Positions 6,511 to 20,062 of a DNA stretch of 20,062 bases are shown one piece after another. The translations under genes and the position numbers were made by a program. The notes beneath the pieces were generated by a model. That model saw nothing but the letters and a program-made list of their open reading frames with translations. It ran no database searches and was not told where the DNA came from. Positions within the stretch are counted from its first letter, which is position 1; the number at the start of each line of letters is the position of its first letter. Source of the stretch: a virus; IMG/VR virus record IMGVR_UViG_3300012924_000032, positions 1 to 20,062 of that record; one strand, given 5' to 3'.

Positions 6511-6999
6511 ATGCCGTACGAGACTGTGCAATATCCGACCACCAAGGGCAGCTGCCCCACCGAAGTGACGGTCAGCTGGAACAAGGACCAGGCCCACGTC
6601 CAGCTCCGCGTCGAGCGCCACCACGTCATCGAGTGCCCCAACGGGTGCGATAGGCACAACCGTGCCGTCGAAGAGGGTGCCGCCAAGATGGGCTGCACCG
6701 ACTGCCCGCCGTTCGGGGACCCCATTCCCATCAATTCGTTGCGGGTGAGCGGCGACGGCCACGTGGCGCGCAAGGACGACGACGGCGCGTGGAACATCTG
6801 GCGGCGCGAGGGCATGGGCCGGACCGGCCCCGAGGTGGTCGTCGAAGACCAGATCCTCGAATGGCCGGTGGCGTGGATGCCCGACGACCAGCCGGTGGCC
6901 GCAGTGATCTACACCGAGGTACTGACGCGCCCGCAGATCAACAAGATGATCCGCACGCTGCGCAAGGCCCGCGATGACGCGTACGGGGCCGACGCCTAG
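6511..6999 (+). CDS. Hypothetical protein, 162 aa
   Basis: ATG 6511 has an excellent GAAGGAG ribosome-binding sequence 7 nt upstream. The N-terminal 60 residues are strand-rich (TEVTVSWNKDQAHVQLRVER); a Cys cluster follows (CPNGC at about 44-48 and CTDCPPFGD at 62-70), then a Trp-rich part (GAWNIWRREGMG) and a helical basic C-terminus (INKMIRTLRKARDD). No family recognised. It follows a hairpin, so it is probably transcribed separately. It converges with the minus-strand glycosyltransferase, sharing the bases CTAG for both stop codons. Confidence 0.75.
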   Translation: MPYETVQYPTTKGSCPTEVTVSWNKDQAHVQLRVERHHVIECPNGCDRHNRAVEEGAAKMGCTDCPPFGDPIPINSLRVSGDGHVARKDDDGAWNIWRREGMGRTGPEVVVEDQILEWPVAWMPDDQPVAAVIYTEVLTRPQINKMIRTLRKARDDAYGADA

Positions 7000-7940
7000 T
7001 TGACGTAGCGCCCCACCTCGGGGTCATTGTCCGCGTGCCGGTTGCGCCAGTTGTTCGCGTCCCACCGTGGCTCGTCGCCGCTGGGCTCTTCGACTGGCGC
7101 AACCGCCCGCACATTGAACCGTTCATCGGAGAGGTACTGCTTCCCCAACGTCGCGTAGTGGCCGCGCCAACGGGTGAGTTGGCCGGCGCTCGGCTTCTGC
7201 GGGCCAAAGGTGAGATGCCCGGCGACGAAGCCGCGCAGGATGATGCGCTTGAACGTGTTCATGCACCCTTCGTCACCCAGCCGGTTCGTCCTGCAGAACG
7301 ACCGGCCCGCGATGAGCTGCGGATGCGGCTTGTCGAGGTTGTGAGCGATGCGTTCGTTCATCGCATAGTCGAACCCGACGACGTTGATCGACAGCCAATC
7401 TTCGGTGGGTATCAGCTCGACCGGCTGGTTGATCAGCTCGGCGCTGTGGTTGAAGAAATGGGTGTGCGCCATCGTGGCGTAGGCGCAGCTCTCGTGCACG
7501 TCGAGCAGGGGAATGCCGAGCTTCTCGAAGCGTTGCCACAGCTGCGGTTCCAGCGGCGTACAGGCACCGTTGTTGACGACGTTGGCCGACAGGATGGCGC
7601 GCGGATGGTTGACGATGGCGTCGACGAAGTCATCGAACCGGTGCGTCTCGAGGAACACAACGTCGTCGTCCAGCTTGATGAACACCGTGCCCTGGTACTG
7701 CGACTCGGCGTAGTGCCGGTACACGTCGTTCCAGCTGCCGCCGGGATACAGCTCGCTGCGCACCGTGATGCCGCGTCCACTGATGCTGCGAACGTAGGCG
7801 TTGTCGTGCTCCTCACGGCACAGGTTCCAGACGTGATACTCGACATCTGGGTGTTCGTCGAGGATTCGCCTGACGAACGGGAGCTGTAGCTCCATGTTGG
7901 CCTGGCGACCTGCAAAGACGAACATGATCACACGTGACAT
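6996..7940 (-). CDS. Glycosyltransferase, GT-A-like, paralogue of the upstream gene, 314 aa
   Basis: Predicted to transfer a sugar from a nucleotide donor. Residues 88-97 (FIKLDDDVVF) carry a DxD-type motif for metal and nucleotide sugar binding, and the N-terminus MSRVIMFVFAGRQANMELQL starts a Rossmann-like strand. It is clearly paralogous to the gene at 7943-8932: FAGR, EYH-WN and DDD-FLET align along the length, as do a later TEDW and the C-terminal FxAGHL-FG block. ATG 7940 lies 2 nt after the upstream stop; the ribosome-binding sequence is weak, so coupling is likely. It ends the minus-strand carbohydrate operon and its stop overlaps that of the convergent gene. Confidence 0.85.
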   Translation of the reverse strand: MSRVIMFVFAGRQANMELQLPFVRRILDEHPDVEYHVWNLCREEHDNAYVRSISGRGITVRSELYPGGSWNDVYRHYAESQYQGTVFIKLDDDVVFLETHRFDDFVDAIVNHPRAILSANVVNNGACTPLEPQLWQRFEKLGIPLLDVHESCAYATMAHTHFFNHSAELINQPVELIPTEDWLSINVVGFDYAMNERIAHNLDKPHPQLIAGRSFCRTNRLGDEGCMNTFKRIILRGFVAGHLTFGPQKPSAGQLTRWRGHYATLGKQYLSDERFNVRAVAPVEEPSGDEPRWDANNWRNRHADNDPEVGRYVN

Positions 7941-7942
7941 GG

Positions 7943-8932
7943 CTATTGCGGCCAGAGTCCCTGATCCCGCTTCCCGCAGGAGATTTCCTCGCTGAGTTCG
8001 GGAAGATCGGCGGGGTGGGGGCGGTCGTATTTCAGGTACACCTCGGCAAGGTGGCGATAACCCTCGCGCCACTGAGACAGTAGATCCTCGCCCTGCGCAC
8101 CGAAGGATAGATGGCCCGCCGTGAAGCCCTTCATGACATACCGGGCGAGCAGCTGGAACGTTCCCTCGTCACCGAACATCTGACCCCACGGGTATTCGCG
8201 CACGATGTGGTTTCCGCGACGCACGTCGCGGGGTGCCATATGCCTACCTGCCAGTATTGGGGGATGCGGCGTGCCGATCGTCTCAAGGCAGTGCTTCATC
8301 ACCCGGTGCGAGTAGCCAATGGCGTTGATCTCAGTCCAGTCCTCGGTACGCACCAATCGGGCGGGTTGGTCCAAGATCTCGGTGGCATTCTCGAAGAGGT
8401 AGGTGTGCGCGATGTCGGCGTACTTCTGACTCCTGAAGACGTCATCGACTGGGATGTCGAGGGCGAGGAACTGGCTCCATAGCATCGGGTGGGTCCGGGT
8501 GCAGCAGCAGTTGTTGATGGTGTCCGCGATGATCACGGCATCCGGGTAGGCGGTGATGGCGGCGGCAAACTGCGCAAACCGTGCGGTTTCCAAAAAGCAG
8601 ATGTCGTCATCGATCTTGATGAACTGACAATCCTCGTAGTCAGGCTTCGCGTAGTGCGTGTACGCCGCGTTGTGCTCGTTCGCGCCAAACTGCCTGACCT
8701 GGGCATCTACCTCGGTAGGGGTTGGCGATGCAAAGCCAGCGCCCTCGCCGTTCCACACCGTGATTCGATCACCGTCGATGGTCTTGACGTACTCGCGGTC
8801 CGCGTCATTGCGGGCGAAGTTCCACAGGTGGTACTCGGCGTCAGGGTTTTCCGCGAGGATGCGCTGCACCAGCGGAACCTGCAGCTCGAGGTTGGGTCGT
8901 CGACCGGCGAACGTAAAGACGATCGTCTTCAT
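7943..8932 (-). CDS. Glycosyltransferase, GT-A-like, tandem paralogue, 329 aa
   Basis: Same family as the following gene. Residues 103-114 (CQFIKIDDDICF) hold the DxD motif; TEDW near residue 220 and the GFTAGHLSFG block near residue 290 are shared with the paralogue and may be acceptor or catalytic elements. ATG 8932 overlaps the methyltransferase stop (ATGA). A longer in-frame extension upstream is the shadow of the methyltransferase gene. Compared with its paralogue it has an insert near residues 62-85 and a run of three Cys (NNCCCTR), so the two probably use different donors or acceptors. Likely adds successive sugars to one glycan (inference). Confidence 0.85.
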   Translation of the reverse strand: MKTIVFTFAGRRPNLELQVPLVQRILAENPDAEYHLWNFARNDADREYVKTIDGDRITVWNGEGAGFASPTPTEVDAQVRQFGANEHNAAYTHYAKPDYEDCQFIKIDDDICFLETARFAQFAAAITAYPDAVIIADTINNCCCTRTHPMLWSQFLALDIPVDDVFRSQKYADIAHTYLFENATEILDQPARLVRTEDWTEINAIGYSHRVMKHCLETIGTPHPPILAGRHMAPRDVRRGNHIVREYPWGQMFGDEGTFQLLARYVMKGFTAGHLSFGAQGEDLLSQWREGYRHLAEVYLKYDRPHPADLPELSEEISCGKRDQGLWPQ

Positions 8933-9585
8933 GGCTGCATGTCCGGCCTGCGAATGAGCCACGACGAATCGTTGAACACCTTGACGTTGCCCTTTCCAAA
9001 GAGGTGATCCACCGCCGGGATCACTCGGTTGGCCTCGCCATCGCCCAGTACGTAGTCGTGGCCTGCCATCCAGCCGCCCTTGCTGACGAGTGGCCACGAG
9101 GCGCGAACGTCGTCAATGACCGGCTGCTCCTCGTGCACGGCGTCGACGTAGACCAGATCGAAGTAGCCGGTGTACTTCTCCGCCATGGCGACCTGGGCGT
9201 TCGGGCTGTAGTCGCGGATGACCGTGAGATTCGGATACCCACCGTTGCGGTCAAGGAACTGCTGGCTACGTCCGGCCCGCATGTTCATGAAGTCGGTCTT
9301 GGCGTCATCGCCCTCGATGTGGTCGAACTCGAAACTAATGTCGGGGAAGTCATCCCATGGATCGACCACGACGACTTCCTCGCACAACAGCAGGAATACC
9401 TCAGTGGAGACGCCACGGTCACCGCCAAGTTCGAGCACTCGGCGCGGTCGAACCTCTTGAACGAGGTCTATCAGGCCGCCGGTCGTGTCCACTGGATTGC
9501 CTAGGTCGTCACCGCAGCGCGGTGTCCTACGAAGCTCTTCGAGGCGCTCCTCGACTGTCACATCCACTGGTAGCTCACTTCCCAT
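8929..9585 (-). CDS. Class I SAM-dependent methyltransferase (Methyltransf_24-like), 218 aa
   Basis: Motif I is VLELGGDRG (50-58), the SAM-binding glycine loop; motif II ends in VVVVDPWDD (about 71-79), and YFDLVYVDAVHEE (141-153) followed by VSKGGWMAGHDY is the typical Methyltransf_24 signature. Members of this group methylate sugars or small molecules. ATG 9585 overlaps the epimerase stop by 11 nt, and AAGGAG lies 12-13 nt upstream. Placement between a sugar epimerase and two glycosyltransferases suggests O-methylation of a glycan, a common feature of mycobacterial surface sugars. Confidence 0.85.
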   Translation of the reverse strand: MGSELPVDVTVEERLEELRRTPRCGDDLGNPVDTTGGLIDLVQEVRPRRVLELGGDRGVSTEVFLLLCEEVVVVDPWDDFPDISFEFDHIEGDDAKTDFMNMRAGRSQQFLDRNGGYPNLTVIRDYSPNAQVAMAEKYTGYFDLVYVDAVHEEQPVIDDVRASWPLVSKGGWMAGHDYVLGDGEANRVIPAVDHLFGKGNVKVFNDSSWLIRRPDMQP

Positions 9586-10480
9586 CGGTCAGCATCTCCT
9601 TGATTCCATCCGTGAACGAAACTTGGGCCGCCCAGCCCAGCAGGTCGTGCGCTCGCTGCACGTCAGCCTGGGTGGATTGCAGGTCGATGCGCCGGGGTGG
9701 CAGGTAGGTCTGGCTTGGGGAGATGAGGTTGGCCAGCTCCTGAACCGTATGCACCTTGCCGGTGCCCACGTTGATCGCCAGTCCGTCAGTGTGAGCACCC
9801 AGCGCGGCGACGTTGGCCCCCGCCACGTCGGTGACGTGAACGAAGTCGCGGGACTGGGTGCCATCGCCCTCGATGGTCAACGGCTCACCGGCTAGGTACT
9901 GACGCAGGAAAACTCCTGTCACCAGCGCATACGGTCCAGTTGTTGGCTGGCCGGGTCCGTACACCTGAAAGTAGCGCAGCACGGTGGCCTTGATGCCGAA
10001 CGTCACCGCGAACGAGCGCACCAGCAACTCACCGGCCAGCTTGGTGGCCGAGTACGGAGACTGCACGTCAGGCAGGTCCGACTCGCGCTGCGGCACCGGC
10101 CTTCCCCCGTAGGCGGTAGAGGAACCGGCGTAGACCAGCTTCAGGTGCGGGTTCGCGGCCACCGCCGTCAACACGTTCACGGTCCCGCCAACATTCGTGG
10201 CAGCCGAGTCCACTACCTTGCTCGGATCGGCCAGGCTCGGCAGCACCCGACTGTCGGCGGCCAGGTGGACCACGCCACGTCGGACTCGGCCGACTAGGTC
10301 GGTAACCAGGCCAGCACTGCGCACGTCACCCTCTATGAACGGCACGCCCAGGTCGGCGTATTCGCTCAGTGACAGGTTGTCCAGGCACACGATCTCGTCG
10401 TCGGGATACCGGGCTCTCAGTGCGGCAATCGTGTGCCGACCGATGAATCCCATGCCGCCCGTAACCAGGATGTCGTACAT
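9575..10480 (-). CDS. NAD-dependent sugar epimerase/dehydratase, 301 aa
   Basis: An extended short-chain dehydrogenase of the UDP-glucose 4-epimerase/dTDP-glucose dehydratase type. Residues 7-14 (TGGMGFIG) are the NAD-binding glycine motif, D34 follows strand 2, GSST (119-122) provides the catalytic Ser/Thr, and Y143-x3-K147 (YSATK) is the catalytic pair. Length is near the family norm (about 310). It should interconvert or dehydrate a nucleotide sugar for the neighbouring transferases; which sugar cannot be read from the sequence. ATG 10480 lies 6 nt after a TAGGCT -10 and is predicted leaderless. It is the first gene of a four-gene overlapping operon. Confidence 0.9.
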   Translation of the reverse strand: MYDILVTGGMGFIGRHTIAALRARYPDDEIVCLDNLSLSEYADLGVPFIEGDVRSAGLVTDLVGRVRRGVVHLAADSRVLPSLADPSKVVDSAATNVGGTVNVLTAVAANPHLKLVYAGSSTAYGGRPVPQRESDLPDVQSPYSATKLAGELLVRSFAVTFGIKATVLRYFQVYGPGQPTTGPYALVTGVFLRQYLAGEPLTIEGDGTQSRDFVHVTDVAGANVAALGAHTDGLAINVGTGKVHTVQELANLISPSQTYLPPRRIDLQSTQADVQRAHDLLGWAAQVSFTDGIKEMLTDGK

Positions 10481-10486
10481 GCGCGG

Positions 10487-10504
10487 AGCCTAACAGCGCG
10501 CTGG
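10487..10504 (-). promoter_or_regulatory. Leaderless-type promoter of the carbohydrate operon
   Basis: On the minus strand CCAGCGCGCTGT (10504-10493) is followed directly by TAGGCT (10492-10487), 6 nt and ATG 10480. The arrangement is nearly identical to 774-800, with one base of the palindrome changed. Confidence 0.6.
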
Positions 10505-10539
10505 AAGAATGGTCGGTATGCACGCCACGTCGAGGTTGG

Positions 10540-11289
10540 TCATCGGACCATCCGCTTTCGCCAGTCGTCCTGCAGCGCGCCGCCGCCGGTCAGCCATCGA
10601 ATCTCCTCGGGGTTGCGGGCCCGTTGGTACATGGCCAGCCTCTTGCCATTGCGCTCCTGCGCCCGTGCATCCTCTGGCCTGATGTGCGCGCCACTGGTGA
10701 GACCTGGGTCGAACTCCAGGTGGTACAGGTGATGGGCCTGGCCTCCGACGAACCGCGTAGAACTACCGGTCATCTCAAAGGCGATCTTCATGGCCGTGTC
10801 GTCGTGGCCGTGCCCCTCAAACGCCTCGTCCCATTGGCCGGCGCTCCGCAACGTCTGACGGCTGATGACGCACGCCGACCCATGATTGATGGTGCTGGCC
10901 CAGGTGTCATGGATGGCCTCACCCTCGAACATCCGATAGTCCGCGCCGCCACGCACCAGGTGACTGTCCATGTTGCCGAGCTTGTGCTGGAACGAGAACG
11001 GCACGATCAACCCGGGCGTCACGGCCCATTCGATGGCCGACTGCAGCTGCGCGTACGGCAGGACTGTGTCGGACTCGATGTAGCAGAGCACGTTGGCATC
11101 GGTCAGGGCAGTGCCACGGTTGTACGCGCGACTGCGGTTGAAGTGATCATTGCCGCTGCCACCATCGTCGACGATGTACACCGGCCAGTTCGACTTGCCC
11201 CAGTAGGCGGCGACGTAATCGAGGTTCCACTGGCGCAGCGGGTCGACACCGCGATCCCGAAAGGCGATGATGATCGCCGCGTCTGTCAC
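10540..11289 (-). CDS. GT2-like glycosyltransferase with Glyco_transf_7C-type C-terminus, 249 aa
   Basis: The N-terminal strand AAIIIAFRDRG and VYIVDDGG (37-44) fit a GT-A fold. IESDTVL (71-77) is the DxD equivalent, here ESD. QWDEAFEGHGHDD (152-164) is the W-D-E-x-F-x-G-x-G-x-[DE]-D motif of galactosyltransferase-type C-terminal domains, which supplies the catalytic base and acceptor contacts. The start GTG 11289 lies 7 nt after an AATACT -10, so it may be leaderless. It has its own promoter, divergent from the microgene operon at 11324, and precedes the epimerase operon, with which it probably cooperates. Confidence 0.85.
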   Translation of the reverse strand: MTDAAIIIAFRDRGVDPLRQWNLDYVAAYWGKSNWPVYIVDDGGSGNDHFNRSRAYNRGTALTDANVLCYIESDTVLPYAQLQSAIEWAVTPGLIVPFSFQHKLGNMDSHLVRGGADYRMFEGEAIHDTWASTINHGSACVISRQTLRSAGQWDEAFEGHGHDDTAMKIAFEMTGSSTRFVGGQAHHLYHLEFDPGLTSGAHIRPEDARAQERNGKRLAMYQRARNPEEIRWLTGGGALQDDWRKRMVR

Positions 11290-11296
11290 ATGGCGG

Positions 11297-11302
11297 AGTA
11301 TT
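11297..11302 (-). promoter_or_regulatory. -10 of the GT2-like gene (AATACT, 7 nt to GTG)
   Basis: Minus-strand AATACT lies 7 nt before GTG 11289. It faces the divergent TAACCT -10 at 11312 only about 10 bp away, so the two promoters probably compete or are jointly controlled. Confidence 0.4.
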
Positions 11303-11311
11303 CCACGGGGC

Positions 11312-11323
11312 TAACCTTGAGCC
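11312..11323 (+). promoter_or_regulatory. Leaderless-type promoter of the microgene operon (TAACCT, 6 nt to ATG)
   Basis: TAACCT (11312-11317) stands 6 nt before ATG 11324. No ribosome-binding sequence precedes the ATG, consistent with a leaderless mRNA. Confidence 0.55.
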
Positions 11324-11461
11324 ATGGAAGAGAAGGCTGACACACGCAACCCGAAGCGCCCCGTTCGCGAGCAGCTCGAGAACAAGGCCCTCAAGAAGCA
11401 TTCCGACGACCCCCGCATGGAGACTGCCGCATATCCGGCCGGTACCGCGCCGCGCCAGTAG
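11324..11461 (+). CDS. Hypothetical small protein, 45 aa
   Basis: The first ORF after the divergent promoter pair; ATG 11324 is predicted leaderless. The product MEEKADTRNPKRPVREQLEN and on is highly charged, probably disordered or helical, and ends AGTAPRQ. No family recognised. It is separated by about 50 nt from the next gene, with a second possible promoter in between. Confidence 0.6.
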   Translation: MEEKADTRNPKRPVREQLENKALKKHSDDPRMETAAYPAGTAPRQ

Positions 11462-11474
11462 TTCAGCGTGGCGC

Positions 11475-11511
11475 TACCCTGATCCGCGGTCACTGGGTCA
11501 CAATGGGCGGC
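11475..11511 (+). promoter_or_regulatory. Possible promoter elements before the 54-aa gene
   Basis: Two candidates: TACCCT (11475-11480), and CACAAT (11499-11504) lying 7 nt before ATG 11512. The second matches the leaderless spacing. No good ribosome-binding site is present. Confidence 0.35.
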
Positions 11512-11676
11512 ATGGCTGCTGTCACACTGAATCCGTACCCCGCCGTCACGCCGCTGGTGCTGCCGTGCACGATCCTCCAGCTCCGTAACTGGGTGAAGGA
11601 AGCTGACAAGCTTCTACTGGGCGACAACGTATCCGTCATCACTGCCACGGCCACGGCCGTGTCGGTGACGGGCTAG
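11512..11676 (+). CDS. Hypothetical small protein, 54 aa
   Basis: ATG 11512 gives MAAVTLNPYPAVTPLVLPCT onward, ending with an Ala/Thr/Val strand (VSVITATATAVSVTG). An in-frame ATG at 11503 adds three residues (MGG). The stop TAG overlaps the next GTG (TAGTG). The N-terminal half is Pro-rich and hydrophobic without being a clear membrane helix. It resembles small phage proteins found among virion or head-associated genes, but no family is recognised. Confidence 0.6.
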   Translation: MAAVTLNPYPAVTPLVLPCTILQLRNWVKEADKLLLGDNVSVITATATAVSVTG

Positions 11677-11765
11677 TGGACGACCACACACTTCTGATCA
11701 TCAATCTGGTGGTCAGCGTGGTCGTCCTTCTGTTGCTGCTCATCCCCTTCGCGCGGCGGCCGTAG
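11676..11765 (+). CDS. Membrane microprotein, 29 aa, immediately upstream of Acb2
   Basis: GTG 11676 within TAGTG opens VDDHTLLIINLVVSVVVLLL, followed by LLIPFARRP: one strong transmembrane helix with an acidic N-terminus and a basic C-terminus (N-out/C-in by the positive-inside rule). Its TAG stop again overlaps the next GTG (TAGTG), coupling it to the Acb2-like gene. Overlaps on both sides and the clean membrane profile support coding. A role beside a CBASS antagonist is possible, since many CBASS effectors are membrane proteins, but that is speculation. Confidence 0.6.
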   Translation: MDDHTLLIINLVVSVVVLLLLLIPFARRP

Positions 11766-11980
11766 TGGCCTCTCAGCAAGAGCTGGACAACTGGTACGAG
11801 TACCACCCGCCCACCCCACAGCAGGGCGACGCGTACATGGCCATCCGTGCCAAGGCCAGGGAGCTGGCCGAGCTGTTCAACGACGCCGCCCCGTCGAGTG
11901 CCGACGCCACCGCCGCACACCGCAAGCTGCGCGAGGCGGTCATGGCGATGAACCTGGCGATTGCCTGCAATACCGCCTGA
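11765..11980 (+). CDS. acb2: Acb2/Tad1-hairpin family protein, predicted anti-CBASS cyclic-nucleotide sponge, 71 aa
   Basis: The sequence WYEYHPPTPQQGDAYMAIR (10-28), followed by an Ala-rich helix, a short P-S-S turn and KLREAVMAMNLAIACN (about 54-69), matches the helical-hairpin Acb2/Tad1 family: a Y-H-P-P-T-P entry, Y-x2-[IL]-R, a helix, then L-x-EAVM-x2-N-x-AIA-x-N. Acb2 proteins form oligomers that bind cyclic di- and trinucleotides made by host CD-NTases, blocking CBASS effector activation; related sponges act on Thoeris signals. Length (71 aa) is near the family norm. GTG 11765 overlaps the stop of the 29-aa membrane protein. I judge this from recalled family consensus, not from a search. 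Confidence 0.85.
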   Translation: MASQQELDNWYEYHPPTPQQGDAYMAIRAKARELAELFNDAAPSSADATAAHRKLREAVMAMNLAIACNTA

Positions 11981-12168
11981 TGGGCTTCTGGATCATGGGT
12001 ACGGCGCACCTCGGTGAGGCGCGGTGCATCTGTGGCACGAACCCCGCGGGTTGCCCGCTTCACCAGCACGTTGAGGTCGTGGCCACCCCTGATCCCATCA
12101 ACGAGTACATCGTTGATCTGGTGCGGCGCAGCGTAATTCTGCGCGTGCTGCTGCCCGCGATGGTTTGA
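11980..12168 (+). CDS. Hypothetical protein with Cys motif, 62 aa
   Basis: ATG 11980 overlaps the Acb2 stop (TGATG). The product MGFWIMGTAHLGEARCICGT contains C-x-C and a later C-P-L-H-x-H, which could bind a metal; the C-terminal part (EYIVDLVRRSVILRVLLPAM) is an amphipathic helix. No family recognised. The stop overlaps the next ATG (TGATG). Confidence 0.6.
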   Translation: MGFWIMGTAHLGEARCICGTNPAGCPLHQHVEVVATPDPINEYIVDLVRRSVILRVLLPAMV

Positions 12169-12401
12169 TGATTGCCATGCAGGGAGACACGCTCACCCGC
12201 GAAGACGAGGACGTTGCCCTCGACACCACGCCGCCAGAGATGTTCCACTACGTCCGCAAGGGCGACATGGTTCGCAGCGCCGCCGAGGGGTCGCACGTCG
12301 TGGCGCTGTGCGGCGAGGTATTCCCGGTGACCAAGGTTCCCAAGAAGAGCAGCAACGTCTGCCCCGATTGCGAGCGCCTCTTCAAGACGATGAAGCCTTG
12401 A
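12168..12401 (+). CDS. DUF3039 family protein, 77 aa
   Basis: The core HYVRKGDMVRSAAEGSHVVA, LCGEVFPVTKVPKKSS and CPDCERLF fits the actinobacterial DUF3039 pattern: an HYV-x-K start, VVALCG, a V-P-x2-P loop, then CP-x-C. The single Cys of LCG and the CPDC pair likely form a zinc site. The biochemical function of DUF3039 is not established; it is common in actinobacterial chromosomes and in actinophages. ATG 12168 overlaps the previous stop; ATG 12177 is an alternative start. It overlaps the next gene by 4 nt (TTGA). Confidence 0.75.
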   Translation: MIAMQGDTLTREDEDVALDTTPPEMFHYVRKGDMVRSAAEGSHVVALCGEVFPVTKVPKKSSNVCPDCERLFKTMKP

Positions 12402-12529
12402 CCGAGGTCGCCGTGGTGGTGCAATGGTGCGCGGGCTGTGATGCCGCGCTACCGCCGCCGGACCGGGACAAGCATGCGATTCAGGTCTGCCCGGTGTGCC
12501 TCTCCGAGCAGCCGCACCGGGGGCGGTGA
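12398..12529 (+). CDS. Small zinc-ribbon-like protein, 43 aa
   Basis: Two Cys pairs, C-A-G-C (11-14) and C-P-V-C (32-35), separated by a Pro/Asp-rich segment with a His, make a minimal treble-clef or zinc-ribbon pattern. The TTG at 12398 overlaps the previous stop (TTGA); three successive GTG codons near 12413 are alternative starts that keep all four Cys. The stop overlaps the next ATG (TGATG). Function unknown; many such phage proteins bind host proteins. Confidence 0.5.
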   Translation: MTEVAVVVQWCAGCDAALPPPDRDKHAIQVCPVCLSEQPHRGR

Positions 12530-12753
12530 TGGTCGACCACGATCCGATCCTGCCCACCGAAACCCTGGCCAAGGCGCATGACGCCGTCGACGACATGGTG
12601 GCCAAAGTCGCGGATCTCAGCAACGCCGACAGCGTGTGGATCATGGCGATGAGTTCAGTAGAGGAGCTCACGCCCGAGCAGCAGCGCCAGAATCTGGCCC
12701 TTCTTCTGACGGTGGCACTGCAACGGCTGGCCCAAATCCAGGCGTCGAAGTGA
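12529..12753 (+). CDS. Hypothetical helical protein, 74 aa
   Basis: ATG 12529 overlaps the previous stop and is preceded by GGGGGCGG. The acidic, all-helical product (MVDHDPILPTETLAKAHDAV and on, then EELTPEQQRQNLALLLTVAL) has no recognisable motif. It is the last gene of the microgene operon; about 105 bp with a promoter separate it from the Rpf gene. Confidence 0.65.
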   Translation: MVDHDPILPTETLAKAHDAVDDMVAKVADLSNADSVWIMAMSSVEELTPEQQRQNLALLLTVALQRLAQIQASK

Positions 12754-13255
<502 letters not shown>

Positions 13256-13259
<4 letters not shown>

Positions 13260-14047
13260 ACAAGCAGTGGGCCACGACCTACTTCGGTGCACACCTTCTC
13301 TGCGACGGCGTCGACATCATCCAGCGCACCATTGCCGCGCACGGCGTCTGGGAGCCGGATGTTAGCCATGTGATCGAGAAGCGGTTGCGACACGGCGATG
13401 TGTTCGTCGACGTGGGTGCCAACATCGGCTACGACTCGCTGCTGGCGGCGTCATGCGTCGGCCCCATGGGCAGCGTCGTCGCCATCGAGGCGGCACCGGC
13501 CACGTACGACCTGCTATGCAACAACATCGCGGCAAACGACTACGCCAACATCAGGCCGGTGTGGGTTGCGGTGGCCGACCGATTCGGTGAGGCAACGCTG
13601 TACGAATACGGCCCGACCAACACGGGCGCGACGACGACGATGGCCAAGCGCCGCATGTTCCGCGACGGTGATCCCGAGCGGGCGTTCCATGGGACACCGG
13701 TGGGCACCGCCACCGCTGCGCCGCTCATCGAGATCCTGTCGCCCATCGAGCGGGTACGGGCGCGCATCATCAAGATCGACGTCGAGGGCGCTGAGGGGCC
13801 CATCGTCGCGGACATCCTGAAGCACCTGGACAAATACCCCGAGAACATGGAGATCCTGGTCGAGGTAGACCCCGAGCTGTACGACTGGGACGGGCTGTTG
13901 GGCGCGCTGGTGGCCAACGACTTCGCCGCCTACCAGATCAAGAACGACTACACCGGCTACCACCAGATCAGCGACGACGTGCGACTCAAGATCCTGCTCG
14001 ACGTGCCCACCGAGCAGGTTGACCTGCTCCTGACACGCCAAATGTGA
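13256..14047 (+). CDS. FkbM-family SAM methyltransferase, 263 aa
   Basis: VFVDVGANIGYDS (49-61) is the SAM-binding motif of FkbM methyltransferases and IKIDVEGAE (172-180) is the family's second diagnostic block; AIEAAP (77-81) closes strand 2. FkbM enzymes O-methylate sugars or small-molecule hydroxyls. Length is typical (250-280). ATG 13256 overlaps the previous stop (ATGA). Separated from the minus-strand glycosylation cassette by about 2 kb and on the opposite strand, it may still act on the same glycan. The 3' end is followed by an ATGTGACAC element. Confidence 0.9.
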
Positions 14048-14091
14048 CACGCTTCCCCCATTGGCATGTGACAGCGGCTAACGTGACCTTC
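14042..14091 (+). promoter_or_regulatory. Leaderless-type promoter with ATGTGACAC element
   Basis: TAACGT (14079-14084) lies 7 nt before GTG 14092. ATGTGACAC begins at 14042, so its GTGACAC core is 35 bp upstream of the -10, exactly as in the HNH promoter; a second ATGTGACA lies at 14067. Confidence 0.45.
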
Positions 14092-14316
14092 GTGATGAAG
14101 CTGACGGTGACCGTTGAAATGGGCGGGCGTACCGCGTGCGAAGTAGTCATGATCCCTGGCAATGCGCGCAAGGACTGGCGTGCTGCCATCAGCGACGTGG
14201 CGTGCCGCATCGAGTTGGGCACGTATGGACCTCCTGGGCCCGTGCCCGACATGACGGCTGAGGACCAGCCGCGGTCGTATGCCAATCACGCATTTGGCGT
14301 ACAGCCCGATGCCTAG
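14092..14316 (+). CDS. Hypothetical protein, 74 aa
   Basis: GTG 14092 (followed at once by ATG 14095) is chosen because of the TAACGT -10 seven bases upstream; a farther GTG (14044) would overlap the promoter. The product VMKLTVTVEMGGRTACEVVM followed by a helical basic stretch is a short alpha/beta protein with no recognised family. Its last codons overlap the HTH gene by 8 nt. Confidence 0.6.
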   Translation: MMKLTVTVEMGGRTACEVVMIPGNARKDWRAAISDVACRIELGTYGPPGPVPDMTAEDQPRSYANHAFGVQPDA

Positions 14317-14488
14317 TCGCGACTACGAGCTACCGGCCCATGAGCGGGACAAGATGATCATGGAGCTGCGGCTACGCGGCTGGAGTTATCGCGCCATCGG
14401 CAAGCGCGTGGGGATGTCAGCCAACGGCGTCATGCACTCGCTGCGCCGGATGAGTGAAGGCAAGGAAGGGAGAGCCCCCCGTGGGTGA
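14309..14488 (+). CDS. Small helix-turn-helix protein, 59 aa (paralogue of 2450-2641)
   Basis: [20 protein letters not shown] leads into an HTH ([20 protein letters not shown]) and a basic tail ([16 protein letters not shown]). It aligns with the protein at 2450-2641 in the ERD, GW, I-x-KR-x-G and C-terminal basic positions. ATG 14309 overlaps the previous gene by 8 nt; a start further upstream (14279) is not favoured. Such compact HTH proteins can be regulators, terminase small-subunit-like DNA binders or transposase-derived modules. Two copies 12 kb apart suggest gene duplication with divided roles. Confidence 0.7.
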
Positions 14489-14942
14489 TGAGCAGGACCA
14501 CTTTCCGAGTGGTATCGAATGGCCGCAGGGCACGTTGACCGAGCGGCGCGCCATCTTCGTGTACGAGACCGCCAGGCAGCAGGCCGCGGCGGTCCATGCA
14601 CCCATCATTCCCGAGCCGTGGTCGCACCGCGAGCACGCGTTCACCAGTCAGTTCCTCGACGTGATCGAGATGATGTGCGGCCCCAACCGCAAGTCCGATC
14701 CCCGCGAGCTGCACGACGACTGGTGGCAGAAGTACATCGACATGGGCTGGGTGCACGGCCCCGAGCGTGACCCGGTCAAGAAGACCCACCCAGACATGGT
14801 CCCGTACGACGAGCTGGGCTGGGAGGAGCGCATGAAGGACGCGGTGTTCGTCTCGCTCTGCGAGCTGGCGCGGCAGTACATCGTCGACGAGGAGCCCGCC
14901 GCAGAAGCACTCCTCGGTCCAGCTTGGTCGGCGGCCCAGTGA
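14481..14942 (+). CDS. RyR-domain protein, 153 aa
   Basis: Residues 78-128 ([20 protein letters not shown] and on through [18 protein letters not shown]) match the RyR domain pattern: W-x6-GW-x-[YH]-GP-x-[RK]-D, then K-x-HP-x-[LM]-VPY-x-EL, then acidic/basic and a final helix. This repeat was first defined in ryanodine receptors and also occurs in bacteria and phages, where its role is not settled; ligand or nucleotide sensing has been suggested. The N-terminal part (20-75) is helical with Trp/His. GTG 14481 is preceded by GGAAGGGAGAG. The stop overlaps the next start (GTGA). Confidence 0.8.
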
Positions 14943-15646
14943 ACGCCACCTTCATCGAGACGCAGGCGCACGCCTGGGAGGAGATTCGCGAGTGGGCGCA
15001 GGAGGCCGAGGCGCAGCCGCTCATCCCGGTGCAGCCCGGTGGCAGCTGGGATGGGCCTGGAAGCAGCGTCGAGGGCACCAAGCGGCTCGTATCGGTGCTG
15101 CCAGCGCTGCTGCGGCAGATTGGCGTCACCAGCATGCTCGACATGGCCTGCGGCGACTGGAATTGGATGCGCCTCGTCGACCTGGGCCGCATCGAGTACA
15201 CCGGCTGGGATGTCGACCCCGGCCGCATCGAGCGCTGCCGAGAGCGCCTCAACACCGCTGACTTCGCGTCGCTCGATCGACCCAATGCTCAGTTCGAGCA
15301 GGTCAACGTGCTCACCGTCGACCCGGTGCTGCTGGGTGGTTGGGACCTGGTGCTGGCGCGTGACTTCTTCGCACACCTGCCCAACGACTATGTGCTCGAG
15401 ATCGTGCAGAAGCTGCGCGCCCAGGAGTCGATCTACCTACTCGCGAGCACCTACCCCAACGCGACGAACGACTTCGTGTACGACCCCAGCCAGTACGCCT
15501 GGGACGGCTACATGGAGCACCCGGTCAACCTTGAGACTGAGCCGTTCCTGCTGCGCAAGGTCGACGCCATCCCCGAGGAGTACGGTCCCGGCGGCGTGCT
15601 GACCGAGTACCACGAACTGGGCCTGTTCGAGCTGGGCCCGCCATGA
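14939..15646 (+). CDS. Class I SAM-dependent methyltransferase, 235 aa
   Basis: [12 protein letters not shown] (66-77) is motif I with an unusual C-G-D-W-N-W loop, and YTGWDVDP (about 84-91) gives the acidic residue that holds the ribose of [16 protein letters not shown] (about 137-149) corresponds to motif IV. Substrate unknown; phage relatives of this form are usually annotated only as methyltransferases. GTG 14939 overlaps the RyR gene stop (GTGA); coupling suggests a common pathway. The C-terminal [19 protein letters not shown] is beta-rich. Confidence 0.85.
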
Positions 15647-15804
15647 GCGAGATGAGCGAGCTGCCCGTCATCATATGTACGCCCAACCCGATCTTCGAGC
15701 CCCGGCAAAGCCCCTACACGCTGAGTTCGATCTTCACGCTTCGGCCAGGGCCGCCGTGGGACCGTTTGCTACGGCGAAATGCTGACCAGGGAAAATGTTC
15801 TTAA
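15643..15804 (+). CDS. Hypothetical protein, 53 aa
   Basis: ATG 15643 overlaps the methyltransferase stop (ATGA). [20 protein letters not shown] continues with FTLRPGPPWDRLL to TAA 15804. The composition is Pro-rich, with no family recognised. The 3' part is less GC-rich and could contain a promoter for the following membrane gene (an A-rich stretch then CTTAACGG). Confidence 0.5.
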   Translation: MSEMSELPVIICTPNPIFEPRQSPYTLSSIFTLRPGPPWDRLLRRNADQGKCS

Positions 15805-15829
15805 CGGACGAGCAGCGAGGAGTTAGCTA

Positions 15830-16102
15830 GTGGCCAACGCTTACATCCAGGCGATCCTTCCGAAGATTGAGAAGTTCACTCGCCAGCAACATGTATTCAG
15901 GTGGGGCACCTTCATCTTGGTGGGCGTGCTGGGCGTACTCGAACTGTGGCAGTGGTCCTGGCTCGTCCTGGGCCTCGCCGCGTTTGCCTCAATGATCGAC
16001 ATCGGCCTGGCGCTCGTCGTCGGTCAGGTAAACCCGGTGGCGTCGGACCTGCAGGCCGAGGAGGCAACACGCGCGCAGCCTGCCTCCAAGCGCGCAGCTT
16101 GA
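15830..16102 (+). CDS. Two-helix membrane protein, holin-like candidate, 90 aa
   Basis: GTG 15830 has AGGAG 9 nt upstream. Residues 26-42 (GTFILVGVLGVLELWQW) and 44-66 (LVLGLAAFASMIDIGLALVV) are two adjacent transmembrane helices; the N-terminus is amphipathic (PKIEKFTRQQ) and the C-terminus hydrophilic. Phage proteins of 70-130 aa with two helices and a charged tail are often holins, but no endolysin gene is visible next to it, so the call is tentative. It lies about 2.7 kb downstream of the Rpf gene. Confidence 0.65.
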   Translation: MANAYIQAILPKIEKFTRQQHVFRWGTFILVGVLGVLELWQWSWLVLGLAAFASMIDIGLALVVGQVNPVASDLQAEEATRAQPASKRAA

Positions 16103-16110
16103 ACGGGTCG

Positions 16111-16122
16111 CACACTGGTCTC
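16111..16122 (+). promoter_or_regulatory. Leaderless-type -10 (CACACT, 6 nt to ATG)
   Basis: CACACT (16111-16116) stands 6 nt before ATG 16123 in the 20-nt gap between two genes. No ribosome-binding sequence is present. Confidence 0.4.
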
Positions 16123-16368
16123 ATGACCTGCACGGGGTGCAGCCACCCGTTCGAGCAGCATCGATTGGGTAAGGCAAAGAGATGTGCCACGCGGATTGCG
16201 TACGGCTGGAACGAGGAGACGAAGGCGTTTGCGGGAACCGCGCCGTGCGCTTGCTCGGGCTACACCGGATCTCTTCCTGGTCACGACTGCCCGCATGAGT
16301 ACATCAGGGAGAGCGCGAAGTGCGTACATTGTCGTCACGTAATGGCAAGCGGAGGTAAGTCGGCATGA
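16123..16368 (+). CDS. Cys/His-rich zinc-binding hypothetical protein, 81 aa
   Basis: Residues 3-7 (CTGCSH), C21, C42/C44 (CAC), then HDCPHEYI and CVHCRHV make at least two metal-binding clusters in 81 residues. No known family was recognised, though C-x-GC-x-H-x-F-x-x-H starts are common in actinophage small proteins. ATG 16123 follows a leaderless-type -10. Its end overlaps the next ATG (ATGA). Confidence 0.65.
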   Translation: MTCTGCSHPFEQHRLGKAKRCATRIAYGWNEETKAFAGTAPCACSGYTGSLPGHDCPHEYIRESAKCVHCRHVMASGGKSA

Positions 16369-16517
16369 TCCTGCTCGGACTGGTGCTATTGATCCTGGGA
16401 CTCGTGTTCGGGATGCAGCTGCTTACGCTCGTCGGCGCGGTGCTCCTGGTCGTCGGCCTCACATTCGAGGCGCTGAGCCAGGTCGGTCGACCAGTTCGTG
16501 GTCGGCGGTGGTGGTGA
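16365..16517 (+). CDS. DUF6131-like small membrane protein, 50 aa
   Basis: MILLGLVLLILGLVFGMQLL then LVGAVLLVVGLTFEAL and a basic GRPVRGRRWW end: two short hydrophobic helices with G-x-x-L-x-x-[LI]-G repeats. This matches the recalled DUF6131 pattern of actinobacterial two-helix proteins. ATG 16365 has GGAGG 10 nt upstream and overlaps the previous stop. The function of the family is unknown; a membrane role is clear from composition only. Confidence 0.65.
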   Translation: MILLGLVLLILGLVFGMQLLTLVGAVLLVVGLTFEALSQVGRPVRGRRWW

Positions 16518-16852
16518 TGGAGCAGTACATGATCTTCCGCGACGGCAAGCCGGTATTCGTTCCCGTCGTCAGTCGGTCGATGCCCATGTATCCGGCCAAG
16601 GACTGGCGCGACGGCACGGGCCAGCCCACGTCGATGCGGCGCTTCTACTTCGAGCGCACCAATGACGTGAGTGGCACCAGCGGCATCGGCGTGGTGGCCG
16701 AGGGCGTGCAGTTCTCCGATGGGCGCGTGGCGCTGCGGTGGGTCACCGACTCAGGCCCGTCATCCACGGTCATCTACGACAGTGTCGAGGATGCCGAGAC
16801 CATCCACGGCCACAACGGCGGCACGCGGGTGGTGTGGGTCGATGGCGGGTAA
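16517..16852 (+). CDS. Hypothetical protein, 111 aa
   Basis: ATG 16517 lies in a TGATG overlap; three GTG codons just upstream are alternative starts. The product MEQYMIFRDGKPVFVPVVSR is beta-rich, with GVVAEGVQFSDGRVALRWVT and a final GGTRVVWVDGG strand. No family recognised. The end overlaps the probable small terminase by 11 nt, so it belongs to the packaging transcript. Its position just before terminase suggests a late or packaging-related role, inferred from context alone. Confidence 0.7.
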   Translation: MEQYMIFRDGKPVFVPVVSRSMPMYPAKDWRDGTGQPTSMRRFYFERTNDVSGTSGIGVVAEGVQFSDGRVALRWVTDSGPSSTVIYDSVEDAETIHGHNGGTRVVWVDGG

Positions 16853-17291
16853 GCCGCAGCTCAGCCGCGAGGAGCGCGAGCGCCGTGACGGCATCATCCT
16901 GAACATGTTCCTGTCCGGGGCCACCGAGCGTGACATCGCCAAGAGCCGCAGCGTCAACCTGTCGTCCAGCCGCGTGCACCGCATCATCGTCGAGCAGCTC
17001 GAGATCGCGGGCGAGCGCTTCGGGCTCATCTCCGAGAAGGCGCTCATCGTCTACTCGGAGCGGCTGGAAATGCTGCTCAAGGCCATCTGGCCCGCCGCCA
17101 TCGGAGACAAGGACCCCAAGAGCATCGAAGTGGCCCGGCGGCTGCTCGATCAGCAGGCCAAGCTGTACCAGATCAGCGACGAGCGCACAGCCATGCCCAT
17201 GCCGCCGATGGGTGACAATGAGCTGAGCGACGAAGTTGCTGAATTGAGCGAGTATCGCGAGCGGCACCGCAAGCCTCCGCAGGCGCGCTAG
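16842..17291 (+). CDS. terS: Probable terminase small subunit, 149 aa
   Basis: Residues 6-45 (LSREERERRDGIILNMFLSG then ATERDIAKSRSVN) form an HTH as in small terminases, followed by a helical oligomerisation part (about 50-115) and an acidic/basic tail (ELSDEVAELSEYRERHRKPP). The gene directly precedes the large terminase, which is the main argument. Small terminases recognise the packaging site and load DNA onto the large subunit. ATG 16842 overlaps the previous gene by 11 nt and only a weak GGTGTGGG ribosome-binding sequence is present. The frame upstream of 16842 is a shadow. Confidence 0.75.
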   Translation: MAGKPQLSREERERRDGIILNMFLSGATERDIAKSRSVNLSSSRVHRIIVEQLEIAGERFGLISEKALIVYSERLEMLLKAIWPAAIGDKDPKSIEVARRLLDQQAKLYQISDERTAMPMPPMGDNELSDEVAELSEYRERHRKPPQAR

Positions 17292-17310
17292 CAAATAGTT
17301 AGGCGCGCTA
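17281..17310 (+). repeat. Direct repeat AGGCGCGCTA, 20-bp period, before TerL start
   Basis: AGGCGCGCTA occurs at 17281-17290 and 17301-17310, separated by the AT-rich GCAAATAGTT; the first copy carries the small-terminase stop and the second abuts ATG 17311. It resembles a variant of the CAGCGCGCTA promoter element at 4735 and may be a control or DNA-binding site. Confidence 0.5.
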
Positions 17311-18930
17311 ATGACTGTGACGCTTGAGGAGCACCAGACCAAGGGCTCCATGCTGCCCCGTATCATGACGCCGCCGCTTGACGAGCACTGCGATGTCAAC
17401 GCCCCTGGTCCACAGTGCCCGTGCGGCTGCGGTCTTCACGAGGGCACCAGTTGGGGGCCATCCTGCATCGAGTTCCTTGAGAAGCTGTGGGGGTGGAGGC
17501 TACTGCCCTGGCAACGCTTCCTGTACTTCCACGCGTTGGAGAAGCGCCGCGACGGCACCGGCTTCCGCTTTCCCACAGTGGTGGTGCTGGTCGGCCGCCA
17601 GCAGGGCAAGACGCGGTGGATCAAGGGCTTGGGTCTATGGCGACTCTTCATGAACGAGTACGGCATCGCCTCGGCGCATGGCCCGGCGGCGCGCCTGGCG
17701 GTCATCGCCGCGCAGAATCTCGACTACGCCGAGGCGATGCTGAACGAGGTGGTCAACGAGATCCGTGAGCATCGCGTCTTCTCACGCGAGTTGATCAACC
17801 ATCGTGAGACCAACGGCAAGCATCGCGCCATCCTCACCAACCGGCGGCTGTGGCGCGTGGCCACCGCCTCGCGCAAGGGTGCTCGATCGCTCTCCGTCGA
17901 CCTGGCCATGCTCGACGAGCTGCGTGAGCACACCAACTGGGATGCCTACAACGCCATCGCGCCGACGACCACGGTGCGCGCCTACAGCCAGGTCATCTGC
18001 ACGTCGAACGCGGGCGACGCTCGTTCCGAGGTGCTGCGGTCACTGCGCGAGGCCGCGGTGCAACGCATCGTCAAGGGCGATACCGAGTCGGCCAGGGTGG
18101 GCCTGTGGGAGTGGAGCGTCCCCATGGACGTGAGCCCGCACAAGCCCGAGTACTGGTACATGGCACTTCCGGCCATGGGCAACATCGGGGACTTCACCCT
18201 CGACACGGTGATGGGCTTCTACGAGGCCATGCACACCAAGAACATGCCGGGCTTCCAGACCGAGTACCTGTGCCAGTGGGTCGACTCGATGGAGCCCGGC
18301 GTCATCCCCGCCGAGTACTGGCAGAACGGCATGGACGCGAACAGCTGCCGCGCAAGGGGAGCGCCCGTGTATGCCGCCTTGGACGTCAACTACGACCGAT
18401 CTCACGCCTACGTCGCGATTGCGGCCCGCCGCGCTGACGGTTTGACCCACATCGAGGTCGTTCAGGCCGCTCGGGGCACCGATTGGGTGGTTCCCTGGCT
18501 CGCCGAGCGCAAGGACCGGTTCAAGGGCGTGGCGATCCAGAAGACCGGAGCGCCGGCCAGCGGCATGATCATCGACCTGCTGGAGGCGGGCGTCCCGGTT
18601 GTCGAGTGGGGGCCCGGTGCTGAGCTGGCCTCGGGCTGCGGCCTGTTCTATGACCAGGTCGTGCAGGACGGCATCTACCACCGGCCAAGCCTGGTGCTCG
18701 ACCGCGCCGCCGCGAGCACCATTGCGCGTCGTGCCGGTGATGCGTGGATCTTCGACCGTCGCAATTCGCCGGTCGACGCCGCGCCATTGGTAGCGTGCGC
18801 AGCAGCAGTGTGGCTGATGGAGAATTACGTCGACCCACTCACGCCCAACGTCCACCAGTGGCCCGAAGAGGACATCATCGCTCAATGGGAGCGCGAAGCA
18901 GAGGAGCTATTCAATGACGATCAACCCTGA
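17311..18930 (+). CDS. terL: Terminase large subunit, 539 aa
   Basis: The motor and nuclease that packages phage DNA. VLVGRQQGKTRW (92-103) is the Walker A motif with G-R-Q-Q-GKT, typical of actinophage terminases; LAMLDE (198-203) is Walker B with catalytic Glu203. The nuclease half starts at AALDVNYDRS (355-364), with D358 as the first metal-binding Asp, and NSPVDAAPLVACAAAV near 490-505 carries the final Asp. CPCGCG (36-41) plus C52 near the N-terminus is an unusual Cys cluster that may bind zinc. Length is normal for the family (480-560). ATG 17311 has no strong ribosome-binding sequence; the stop overlaps the next gene by 17 nt. Confidence 0.95.
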   Translation: MTVTLEEHQTKGSMLPRIMTPPLDEHCDVNAPGPQCPCGCGLHEGTSWGPSCIEFLEKLWGWRLLPWQRFLYFHALEKRRDGTGFRFPTVVVLVGRQQGKTRWIKGLGLWRLFMNEYGIASAHGPAARLAVIAAQNLDYAEAMLNEVVNEIREHRVFSRELINHRETNGKHRAILTNRRLWRVATASRKGARSLSVDLAMLDELREHTNWDAYNAIAPTTTVRAYSQVICTSNAGDARSEVLRSLREAAVQRIVKGDTESARVGLWEWSVPMDVSPHKPEYWYMALPAMGNIGDFTLDTVMGFYEAMHTKNMPGFQTEYLCQWVDSMEPGVIPAEYWQNGMDANSCRARGAPVYAALDVNYDRSHAYVAIAARRADGLTHIEVVQAARGTDWVVPWLAERKDRFKGVAIQKTGAPASGMIIDLLEAGVPVVEWGPGAELASGCGLFYDQVVQDGIYHRPSLVLDRAAASTIARRAGDAWIFDRRNSPVDAAPLVACAAAVWLMENYVDPLTPNVHQWPEEDIIAQWEREAEELFNDDQP

Positions 18931-19291
18931 GAACGGCGTCCCGATTGGTGATCGACTGGGCACCGAGCGTCTGTACGAACAGCTTGAGCCTGGGCTGACG
19001 CTACCACCGCCAGCGCTGCCGAATCTGCAGGCAGTGCCCCCGCCGCCCCGTCCGAAGGGGAAGCGCGAGAAGCGGGCCAAGCAACCACCCGCACCCACGC
19101 CCGATAGGGCGGCACAGGCCAAATTAGCCGACCGAAATTGGCGCAACATCAGCAGTAATTGCCTTGAATTGGCCGGGATCGTTGCGATTACGGCCGGATG
19201 CGCCCTGATTGCCACGTATCTGGCGTTTATCGTCGGCGGCATCCTCGTCGTCGTGCTAGGCGTGGCTATCGGTCTTCAAGTGACAGATTGA
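18914..19291 (+). CDS. Membrane protein with Pro-rich N-terminus, 125 aa
   Basis: ATG 18914 overlaps terminase by 17 nt and has AGAGGAG 9-15 nt upstream. Residues 25-65 are Pro/Lys-rich and disordered (LPPPALPNLQAVPPPPRPKG); residues 85-122 contain two transmembrane helices (LELAGIVAITAGCALIATYL and FIVGGILVVVLGVAIGL). A membrane protein between terminase and portal is unusual in the packaging block. The DNA of its second half has lower third-position GC than terminase. Function unknown. Confidence 0.75.
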   Translation: MTINPENGVPIGDRLGTERLYEQLEPGLTLPPPALPNLQAVPPPPRPKGKREKRAKQPPAPTPDRAAQAKLADRNWRNISSNCLELAGIVAITAGCALIATYLAFIVGGILVVVLGVAIGLQVTD

Positions 19292-19294
19292 TGG

Positions 19295-19307
19295 GACAAT
19301 CCGCCGC
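19295..19307 (+). promoter_or_regulatory. Possible leaderless-type -10 of portal (GACAAT, 7 nt to ATG)
   Basis: GACAAT (19295-19300) lies 7 nt before ATG 19308 in a 16-nt gap without a ribosome-binding sequence. The hexamer fits NANNNT, but read-through from terminase is equally possible. Confidence 0.35.
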
Positions 19308-20062
19308 ATGAGCTTTCTCGGCCGATTCGTCGCGCGTGGCGGCGCGGGGGCTCTCGAACAGCGCGTGCTGACCAGTTCGGCATTCGTGCCGCCCCCGTCC
19401 GTGGGCATCCTCGACGACTACGTCGGCATCCACCGTGCCATGTCGAACCTCACCGTCATGGCCTGCGTGCGCATCCTGTCGGACACCATCGCGGCGCTGC
19501 CATGGAAGGCGTACCGCCGCGACGCCAATGGCATCCCGGTCGAACTCAACCCGCAGCCCACACTGCTCAGGGCCCCGTTCCCCAAGTTCGACCTCTTCCA
19601 GTACAAGTGGATGATGGTGTCCAGCCTGGCGCTGCGCGGCAACTTCTACGGCGTGGTCACTAGCCGGGACTCGGCCTTGCGGCCCACGGCGATCTTGCCA
19701 CTGCACCCCGACAGCGTCTTTCTCGAGCGACGCAACGACCTGCTGATGTGGTTCGATCCCATCTACCGCATCCTCGGTGAGCAGATCCCCAGCGAAGACA
19801 TGATCCACATTCGCCGCTTCACGATGGCCGGCGAACCATACGGACTCTCGCCCGTGCGCCAGGCCGCCGTCGCCATCGGCCTCGGCCTGGCTGCCGAGGA
19901 GTACGGCTATCGCTACTTCAAGGAGTCGGCCAACCCCTCGGGCATCCTGTCGACGGATCAGGATCTGGGCGACGAGGCGGTCACCCGCCAGCAGAAGAAC
20001 TGGATTGCGAGCCACGGCGGCCGCCGGATGCCCGCGGTGCTCACCGGTGGCTTCAAATGGCA
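19308..20062 (+). CDS. Portal protein, HK97 family, partial (cut by window end)
   Basis: The frame opens at ATG 19308 (MSFLGRFVARGGAGALEQRV) and runs off the right edge after 251 codons. The features are those of HK97-type portals: a short basic N-terminus, AMSNLTVMACVRILSDTIAA with the LPW-x-Y strand after it, LRGNFYGVV, LPLHPDSV, IPSEDMIHIRRF and the GLSPV-type loop here written YGLSPVRQAAVAIGLGLAAE, followed by YFKESANPSGILSTD. The portal forms the dodecameric DNA gate at the capsid vertex and docks terminase. The gene order terminase-membrane protein-portal fits a head-assembly operon. Confidence 0.93.
   Translation, partial: MSFLGRFVARGGAGALEQRVLTSSAFVPPPSVGILDDYVGIHRAMSNLTVMACVRILSDTIAALPWKAYRRDANGIPVELNPQPTLLRAPFPKFDLFQYKWMMVSSLALRGNFYGVVTSRDSALRPTAILPLHPDSVFLERRNDLLMWFDPIYRILGEQIPSEDMIHIRRFTMAGEPYGLSPVRQAAVAIGLGLAAEEYGYRYFKESANPSGILSTDQDLGDEAVTRQQKNWIASHGGRRMPAVLTGGFKW

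Follow-up and report, generated by a model that had tools for sequence, protein, structure and literature searches.

A variant mycobacteriophage glycosylation module with its own epimerase on an IMG/VR virus fragment

The IMG/VR virus fragment IMGVR_UViG_3300012924_000032, whose 20,062 bases (positions 1–20,062) are referred to here as the window, comes from a Mycobacterium-type virus genome and carries on its minus strand a cassette of five glycan-synthesis genes that is a variant of the published capsid and tail-tube glycosylation module of the mycobacteriophages Che8 and Corndog. This kind of module is already known. Four features of the variant are new: an epimerase encoded within the cassette, a linked subclade of phrog_4447 transferases, a gp110/gp38 transferase family that was not found, and an orientation opposite to that of the terminase. 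With moderate confidence, virion glycosylation by an epimerase-equipped form of the module appears to be the most likely function of the cassette.

An earlier sequence-only reading of this DNA had proposed five minus-strand genes for glycan synthesis at 6996–11289, and all five are indeed present and intact, with family matches far beyond chance. From 11289 down to 6996 the order is GT2, EPI, MT24, GT_B and GT_A, and the open reading frames are codon-biased, the G+C content at third codon positions being 0.75–0.85. MT24 and GT_B overlap by ATGA (8929–8932) and EPI and MT24 by 11 bp (9575–9585), GT_B and GT_A are spaced by 2 bp, and a 59-nt gap from GT2 to EPI is the sole break in the cassette. 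Alignment places the start codons of GT_A and GT_B at ATG 7940 and ATG 8932, respectively, the upstream GTGs not being used as starts. The overlapping genes of the earlier reading hold up, whereas its division into two transcription units is possible but not established, as it is marked only by the 59-nt gap and the scans do not rise above chance, giving 2 promoter-like and 3 terminator-like sites where 1.3 and 3.3, respectively, are expected. A TANNNT-like hexamer, TAGGCT, precedes the ATG of EPI by 6 nt and would be compatible with a leaderless start of the mycobacterial kind; the motif is frequent by chance. A second contig (L008) equals window positions 6590–20062 except for one synonymous difference, which means that the same arrangement was assembled twice, yet from the same population. 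A DNA search with the whole window against 50,697 phages gave no match.

GT2 (10540–11289, minus strand) matches phrog_1721, ‘galactosyl transferase’, with E=5e-64 and is 44% identical to Che8 gp109 (E=1e-62), which itself belongs to phrog_1721; Che8 gp110 represents a third transferase family distinct from phrog_1721. The tandem pair GT_B (7943–8932) and GT_A (6996–7940), also on the minus strand, matches the PHROGs family phrog_4447, ‘glycosyltransferase’, with E=4e-110 and 8e-79; the two proteins are 42% identical, and both keep the DDD motif. Structure prediction assigns confident GT-A folds to both GT_A and GT2, with predicted local distance difference test (pLDDT) values of 90.6 and 89.1, respectively. 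Their nearest solved folds, at template modelling (TM) scores of 0.4–0.6, are beta-1,4-galactosyltransferase (GT7) and ppGalNAcT (GT27) for GT2, and ppGalNAcT, B4GALNT1 and the collagen galactosyltransferase COLGALT1 for GT_A. All are enzymes of UDP-galactose (UDP-Gal) or UDP-N-acetylgalactosamine (UDP-GalNAc), which is consistent with such a donor, though no proof of it.

Virion glycosylation of Che8 and Corndog was reportedly described by Freeman et al. in Cell Host Microbe in 2023, a study known to us through citing papers. According to three papers (PMC12363180, PMC12619734, PMC11256854), the capsid is not glycosylated without the glycosyltransferases Che8 gp110 and Corndog gp38, which are called essential, and the glycans are placed at the C-termini of the capsid and tail-tube subunits. 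By tblastn, relatives of phrog_4447 occur in 119 phage records, all of them Mycobacterium phages, and those of phrog_1721 in 152, including 150 from Mycobacterium phages. The comparison drew on 92 loci with phrog_4447/phrog_1721 genes, taken from phages, IMG/VR and genomes and nearly all belonging to mycobacteriophages; many are near-duplicates (M. abscessus prophages), and the following counts are not independent. A phrog_1721 gene is found at 84 loci, a TylF methyltransferase at 73 and a Che8-gp110-type transferase at 70, and the phrog_4447 and phrog_1721 genes are neighbours that usually adjoin terminase, portal or capsid genes. The window likewise has a phrog_1721 transferase, two phrog_4447 copies in one gene string with MT24, and a terminase/portal neighbourhood.

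Like Che8 gp108–gp110 and Corndog gp38, the cassette combines a phrog_1721 transferase, an adjacent methyltransferase and further transferases in a mycobacterial phage near terminase and portal genes. Unlike them, it has an epimerase, Methyltransf_24 in place of TylF, two phrog_4447 enzymes and a strand opposite to the terminase, whereas Che8 gp108 is a TylF fusion to which the phrog_4447 model gives no match. In Omega/cluster J (MiaZeal gp15–gp17) and cluster O (Dylan gp32–gp35), TylF, phrog_4447 and phrog_1721 stand beside head genes, and GT_A and GT2 are 42–46% identical to their MiaZeal and Dylan counterparts; in contrast to the window, these two genomes contain no epimerase anywhere, have one phrog_4447 gene and keep the set co-oriented with the late genes. 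The M. abscessus prophages (prophiGD series, CCUG48898T-2 gp71–gp77) resemble the window in phrog_4447 (up to 51% identity) and phrog_1721 genes upstream of the terminase, but CCUG48898T-2 has no epimerase.

EPI (9575–10480, minus strand) is a GalE-type NAD-dependent UDP-sugar 4-epimerase (Epimerase PF01370, E=8e-48; PHROGs nucleotide-sugar epimerase, E=2e-65). It shares with GalE the fold family (extended short-chain dehydrogenases/reductases), the NAD-binding GxxGxxG motif, here TGGMGFIG, and the catalytic Ser/Tyr/Lys. It differs from GalE in its length of ~300 aa, in belonging to a distinct phage clade and in having, by alignment, Thr where E. coli GalE has the bulky Tyr299. Loss of the bulky residue at this gatekeeping position would permit N-acetylated substrates. 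The epimerase tree, in which two rows (L195, L203) are mis-stranded, was used solely for grouping phage epimerases.

Four of the 92 loci carry the epimerase: the window, the metagenomic contigs L009/G002 (65% identity to EPI) and L010/G003 (64%; here as a fusion with a TylF methyltransferase), and a prophage of M. gordonae DSM 44160 (70–73%). Among 50,697 phage records no epimerase exceeds 38% identity to EPI, and five mycobacteriophage records tested have none. Across 396 Mycobacterium-group genomes, phrog_4447 is present in 4 and this EPI only in M. gordonae. Recent capture of EPI from a host was rejected for the three host genomes searched, the best chromosomal homologues being at most 38% identical. 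The M. gordonae prophage (NZ_LQOY01000071) lies at tRNA-Asn and has repressor and antirepressor genes. Its EPI stands directly upstream of phrog_4447/phrog_1721/terS/terL, and it shares with the window EPI, a GT_B-clade transferase (54%), phrog_1721 and an HNH gene (54%), which are lined up before terS/terL; unlike in the window, the cassette is co-oriented with the terminase, lacks MT24 and includes Stealth_CR2-like and phrog_2456-type transferases. It opens with the Stealth_CR2-like protein (hexose-phosphate transferase family; phrog_7999, L206:15782–16522). G003 (L027–L032, IMGVR_UViG_3300032893_000011, 113,740 bp) combines the EPI-TylF fusion cassette with a TrwC relaxase-helicase (91317–96602; PF08751, E=4e-83), a VirB4-like AAA_10 ATPase, a 2178-aa tape-measure-like open reading frame (58931–65467) and an intein-bearing one of 1383 aa. 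This contig is either a hybrid between a conjugative element and a phage or the result of a chimeric assembly.

When 40 non-redundant phrog_4447 proteins are placed in a tree, those from epimerase loci cluster more tightly than in any of 500 label shuffles (0/500). A supported clade (98/93) unites GT_B with the proteins of L009, L010 and M. gordonae, a subclade seen only at epimerase-bearing loci, and GT_A lies nearby with a non-epimerase locus. Judged from this tree, it is GT_B, not GT_A, that has the closest tie to the epimerase. Since all four epimerase loci carry one supported subclade, epimerase and transferase have probably evolved together. A recent tandem duplication giving rise to GT_A and GT_B was rejected, as GT_B groups with epimerase-locus proteins of other phages. 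A search for GT_B on plasmids found none.

The third component, MT24 (8929–9585, minus strand), matches Methyltransf_24 (PF13578, E=1e-11) and is a probable sugar O-methyltransferase. A search against phages gave no match, and its identity therefore rests on Pfam and on a homologue in the phage contig L119, which adjoins a related epimerase and a UDP-galactopyranose mutase; profile comparison with the TylF and CmcI groups revealed no significant similarity. Two more methyltransferases that the sequence-only reading had placed nearby on the plus strand were also confirmed. The class I S-adenosylmethionine-dependent enzyme (14924–15646; phrog_3382) is likely an accessory part on the other strand. 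Its homologues Ariel gp17 (40%) and prophiGD91-2 gp76 (38%) both lie inside glycosyltransferase islands, the former between capsid and zinc-finger-protease genes, the stretch that holds TylF-phrog_4447-phrog_1721 in MiaZeal; the gene probably belongs to the glycosylation set. The FkbM-family protein (13256–14047; PF05050/TIGR01444) is a plausible sugar O-methyltransferase. It has only weak matches in phages (at most 32.5%), none of them in mycobacteriophages, and no link of this gene to the module appeared in any other locus found.

We infer that EPI would convert UDP-glucose (or UDP-N-acetylglucosamine) to UDP-Gal (or UDP-GalNAc) and that this donor would be used by GT2, together with GT_A, GT_B or both, to build a short glycan. 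MT24 would O-methylate the glycan, probably assisted by the class I methyltransferase encoded on the plus strand. The acceptor would most likely be Ser/Thr of an abundant virion protein (e.g., capsid, tail tube) late in infection. By analogy, virion proteins seem the likeliest acceptor because of the homology to Che8/Corndog and because dozens of relatives have the module beside terminase and head genes. The methylated oligosaccharide suggested by the earlier reading is well supported by the recurrent transferase/methyltransferase module and by the mutase-neighbouring epimerases; as to its acceptor, for which that reading had named virion proteins or host surface glycolipids, homology and location favour the virion without proving it, and the host surface is the main rival.

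Several points weigh against this picture. The cassette runs opposite to the terminase, whereas 67 of the 67 other scorable phrog_4447 genes are co-oriented with it, and late co-expression is therefore not assured. The contig stops inside the portal gene and includes neither the capsid nor the tail-tube gene. The capsid C-termini of G002, L040 and MiaZeal are no more Ser/Thr-rich than those of the transferase-free Typha and prophiGD43A-5 and have no special tail. The gp110/gp38 family, represented in the comparison by Che8 gp110, has no match in the window, G002, G003 or the M. gordonae contig, all of which are fragments; the lack of a gp110-type transferase at epimerase loci is a lead, not a demonstrated absence. 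The donor inference from fold is weak because the TM-scores are low, and the Thr at the Tyr299 position, on alignment, does not decide between UDP-Gal and UDP-GalNAc.

It is also conceivable, albeit unlikely, that the cassette acts on the host surface, where altered glycolipids or wall glycans would serve superinfection exclusion, receptor masking or lysogenic conversion. A minus-strand promoter of its own would then drive it, perhaps in a lysogen. The orientation opposite to the late genes, unlike that in relatives, strengthens this possibility slightly, the M. gordonae prophage at tRNA-Asn carries an epimerase-type cassette, and nucleotide-sugar supply together with several methyltransferases resembles surface-glycan pathways such as those of mycobacterial glycopeptidolipids. 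However, none of the cassette genes was seen to encode a membrane-bound flippase, a polymerase or a prenyl-phosphate glycosyltransferase. In most relatives, the M. gordonae prophage included, the cassette is directly upstream of the terminase and co-oriented with it, and its gene families are the ones that make up the proven virion module.

Less probable still is that virion glycosylation is retained and EPI yields another donor, e.g., UDP-glucuronate/UDP-galacturonate or, acting as a 4,6-dehydratase, a 6-deoxysugar precursor. EPI scores 118.9 bits with the NCBIfam galE model TIGR01179, below its 262-bit equivalog cut-off, and dTDP-glucose 4,6-dehydratase and GalE score nearly equally, both far below cut-off. 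One of the nearest solved structures is MoeE5, a UDP-glucuronate 4-epimerase. On the other hand, the closest relatives with solved structures bear the name UDP-glucose 4-epimerase (4zrm, E=6e-38), and the Ser-Tyr-Lys pattern aligns with S124, Y149 and K153 of E. coli GalE. The epimerases of the phage contigs L119 and L120, which are 47% identical to EPI, adjoin a UDP-galactopyranose mutase, an enzyme whose substrate is UDP-Gal. These neighbours lend indirect support to the interconversion of UDP-glucose and UDP-Gal, which EPI probably catalyses. EPI is thus GalE-type but not assignable to the galE equivalog, and the sequence takes the assignment no further. Both contigs look non-mycobacterial and have distant phrog_4447-like transferases near an apparent tail region; their genes may possibly represent a phage-encoded galactofuranose pathway. 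Glycosylation of modified bases in phage DNA, conferring restriction resistance, is a common role of phage glycosyltransferases according to PMC12619734, and DNA-modifying genes may exist outside the fragment, but this is very improbable here. Among the genes of the 20 kb, none was identified that would make a hydroxymethylated or otherwise hypermodified base, the transferases belong to families of the protein-glycosylation module rather than to known DNA glucosyltransferases, and DNA glucosylation does not typically involve UDP-Gal(NAc)-type folds or sugar methyltransferases.

The surroundings of the cassette contain several other features. The large terminase subunit gene (17311–18930, plus strand) lies 6 kb from it on the opposite strand, and its product is 53% identical to that of Mycobacterium phage Typha, the closest match; the portal gene follows (19308–20062, plus strand), is cut by the contig end and encodes a protein 69% identical to the L009/G002 portal. 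A secreted small protein with an Rpf-like transglycosylase domain (PF06737, E=5e-33) is encoded at 12859–13161 on the plus strand, in the interval that separates the two divergent sets of glycosylation genes. Positions 1–2400 differ in base skew and hold plausible minus-strand open reading frames without family matches (e.g., 297–773, 1336–1695). A 39-nt direct repeat at this left end (780–818 and 1758–1796, 87%) might be a regulatory element. Two small helix-turn-helix-like open reading frames, 2390–2641 and 14279–14488, are paralogues with 40% identity (aligned over 2453–2638 and 14303–14482).

Virion glycosylation in phages is a recently described trait. We put forward tentatively, as a possibility rather than an expectation, that the epimerase loci represent a second kind of glycosylation system in mycobacterial phages. 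It would not depend on gp110, its epimerase would provide UDP-Gal or UDP-GalNAc by way of the phrog_4447 subclade that evolved with it, and its product would be a methylated glycan of different composition, made in this phage from a minus-strand transcription unit of its own. The epimerase and the single transferase subclade that it follows form a concrete, testable pair of donor and enzyme, and the M. gordonae DSM 44160 prophage provides a named, cultured strain in which to seek the glycan. In general, the module is varied by swaps of methyltransferases, initiating transferases and donor synthesis, its rarer version bringing its own enzyme for the sugar building block, and such gene swapping bears on how phages diversify the surface that they expose to other organisms.

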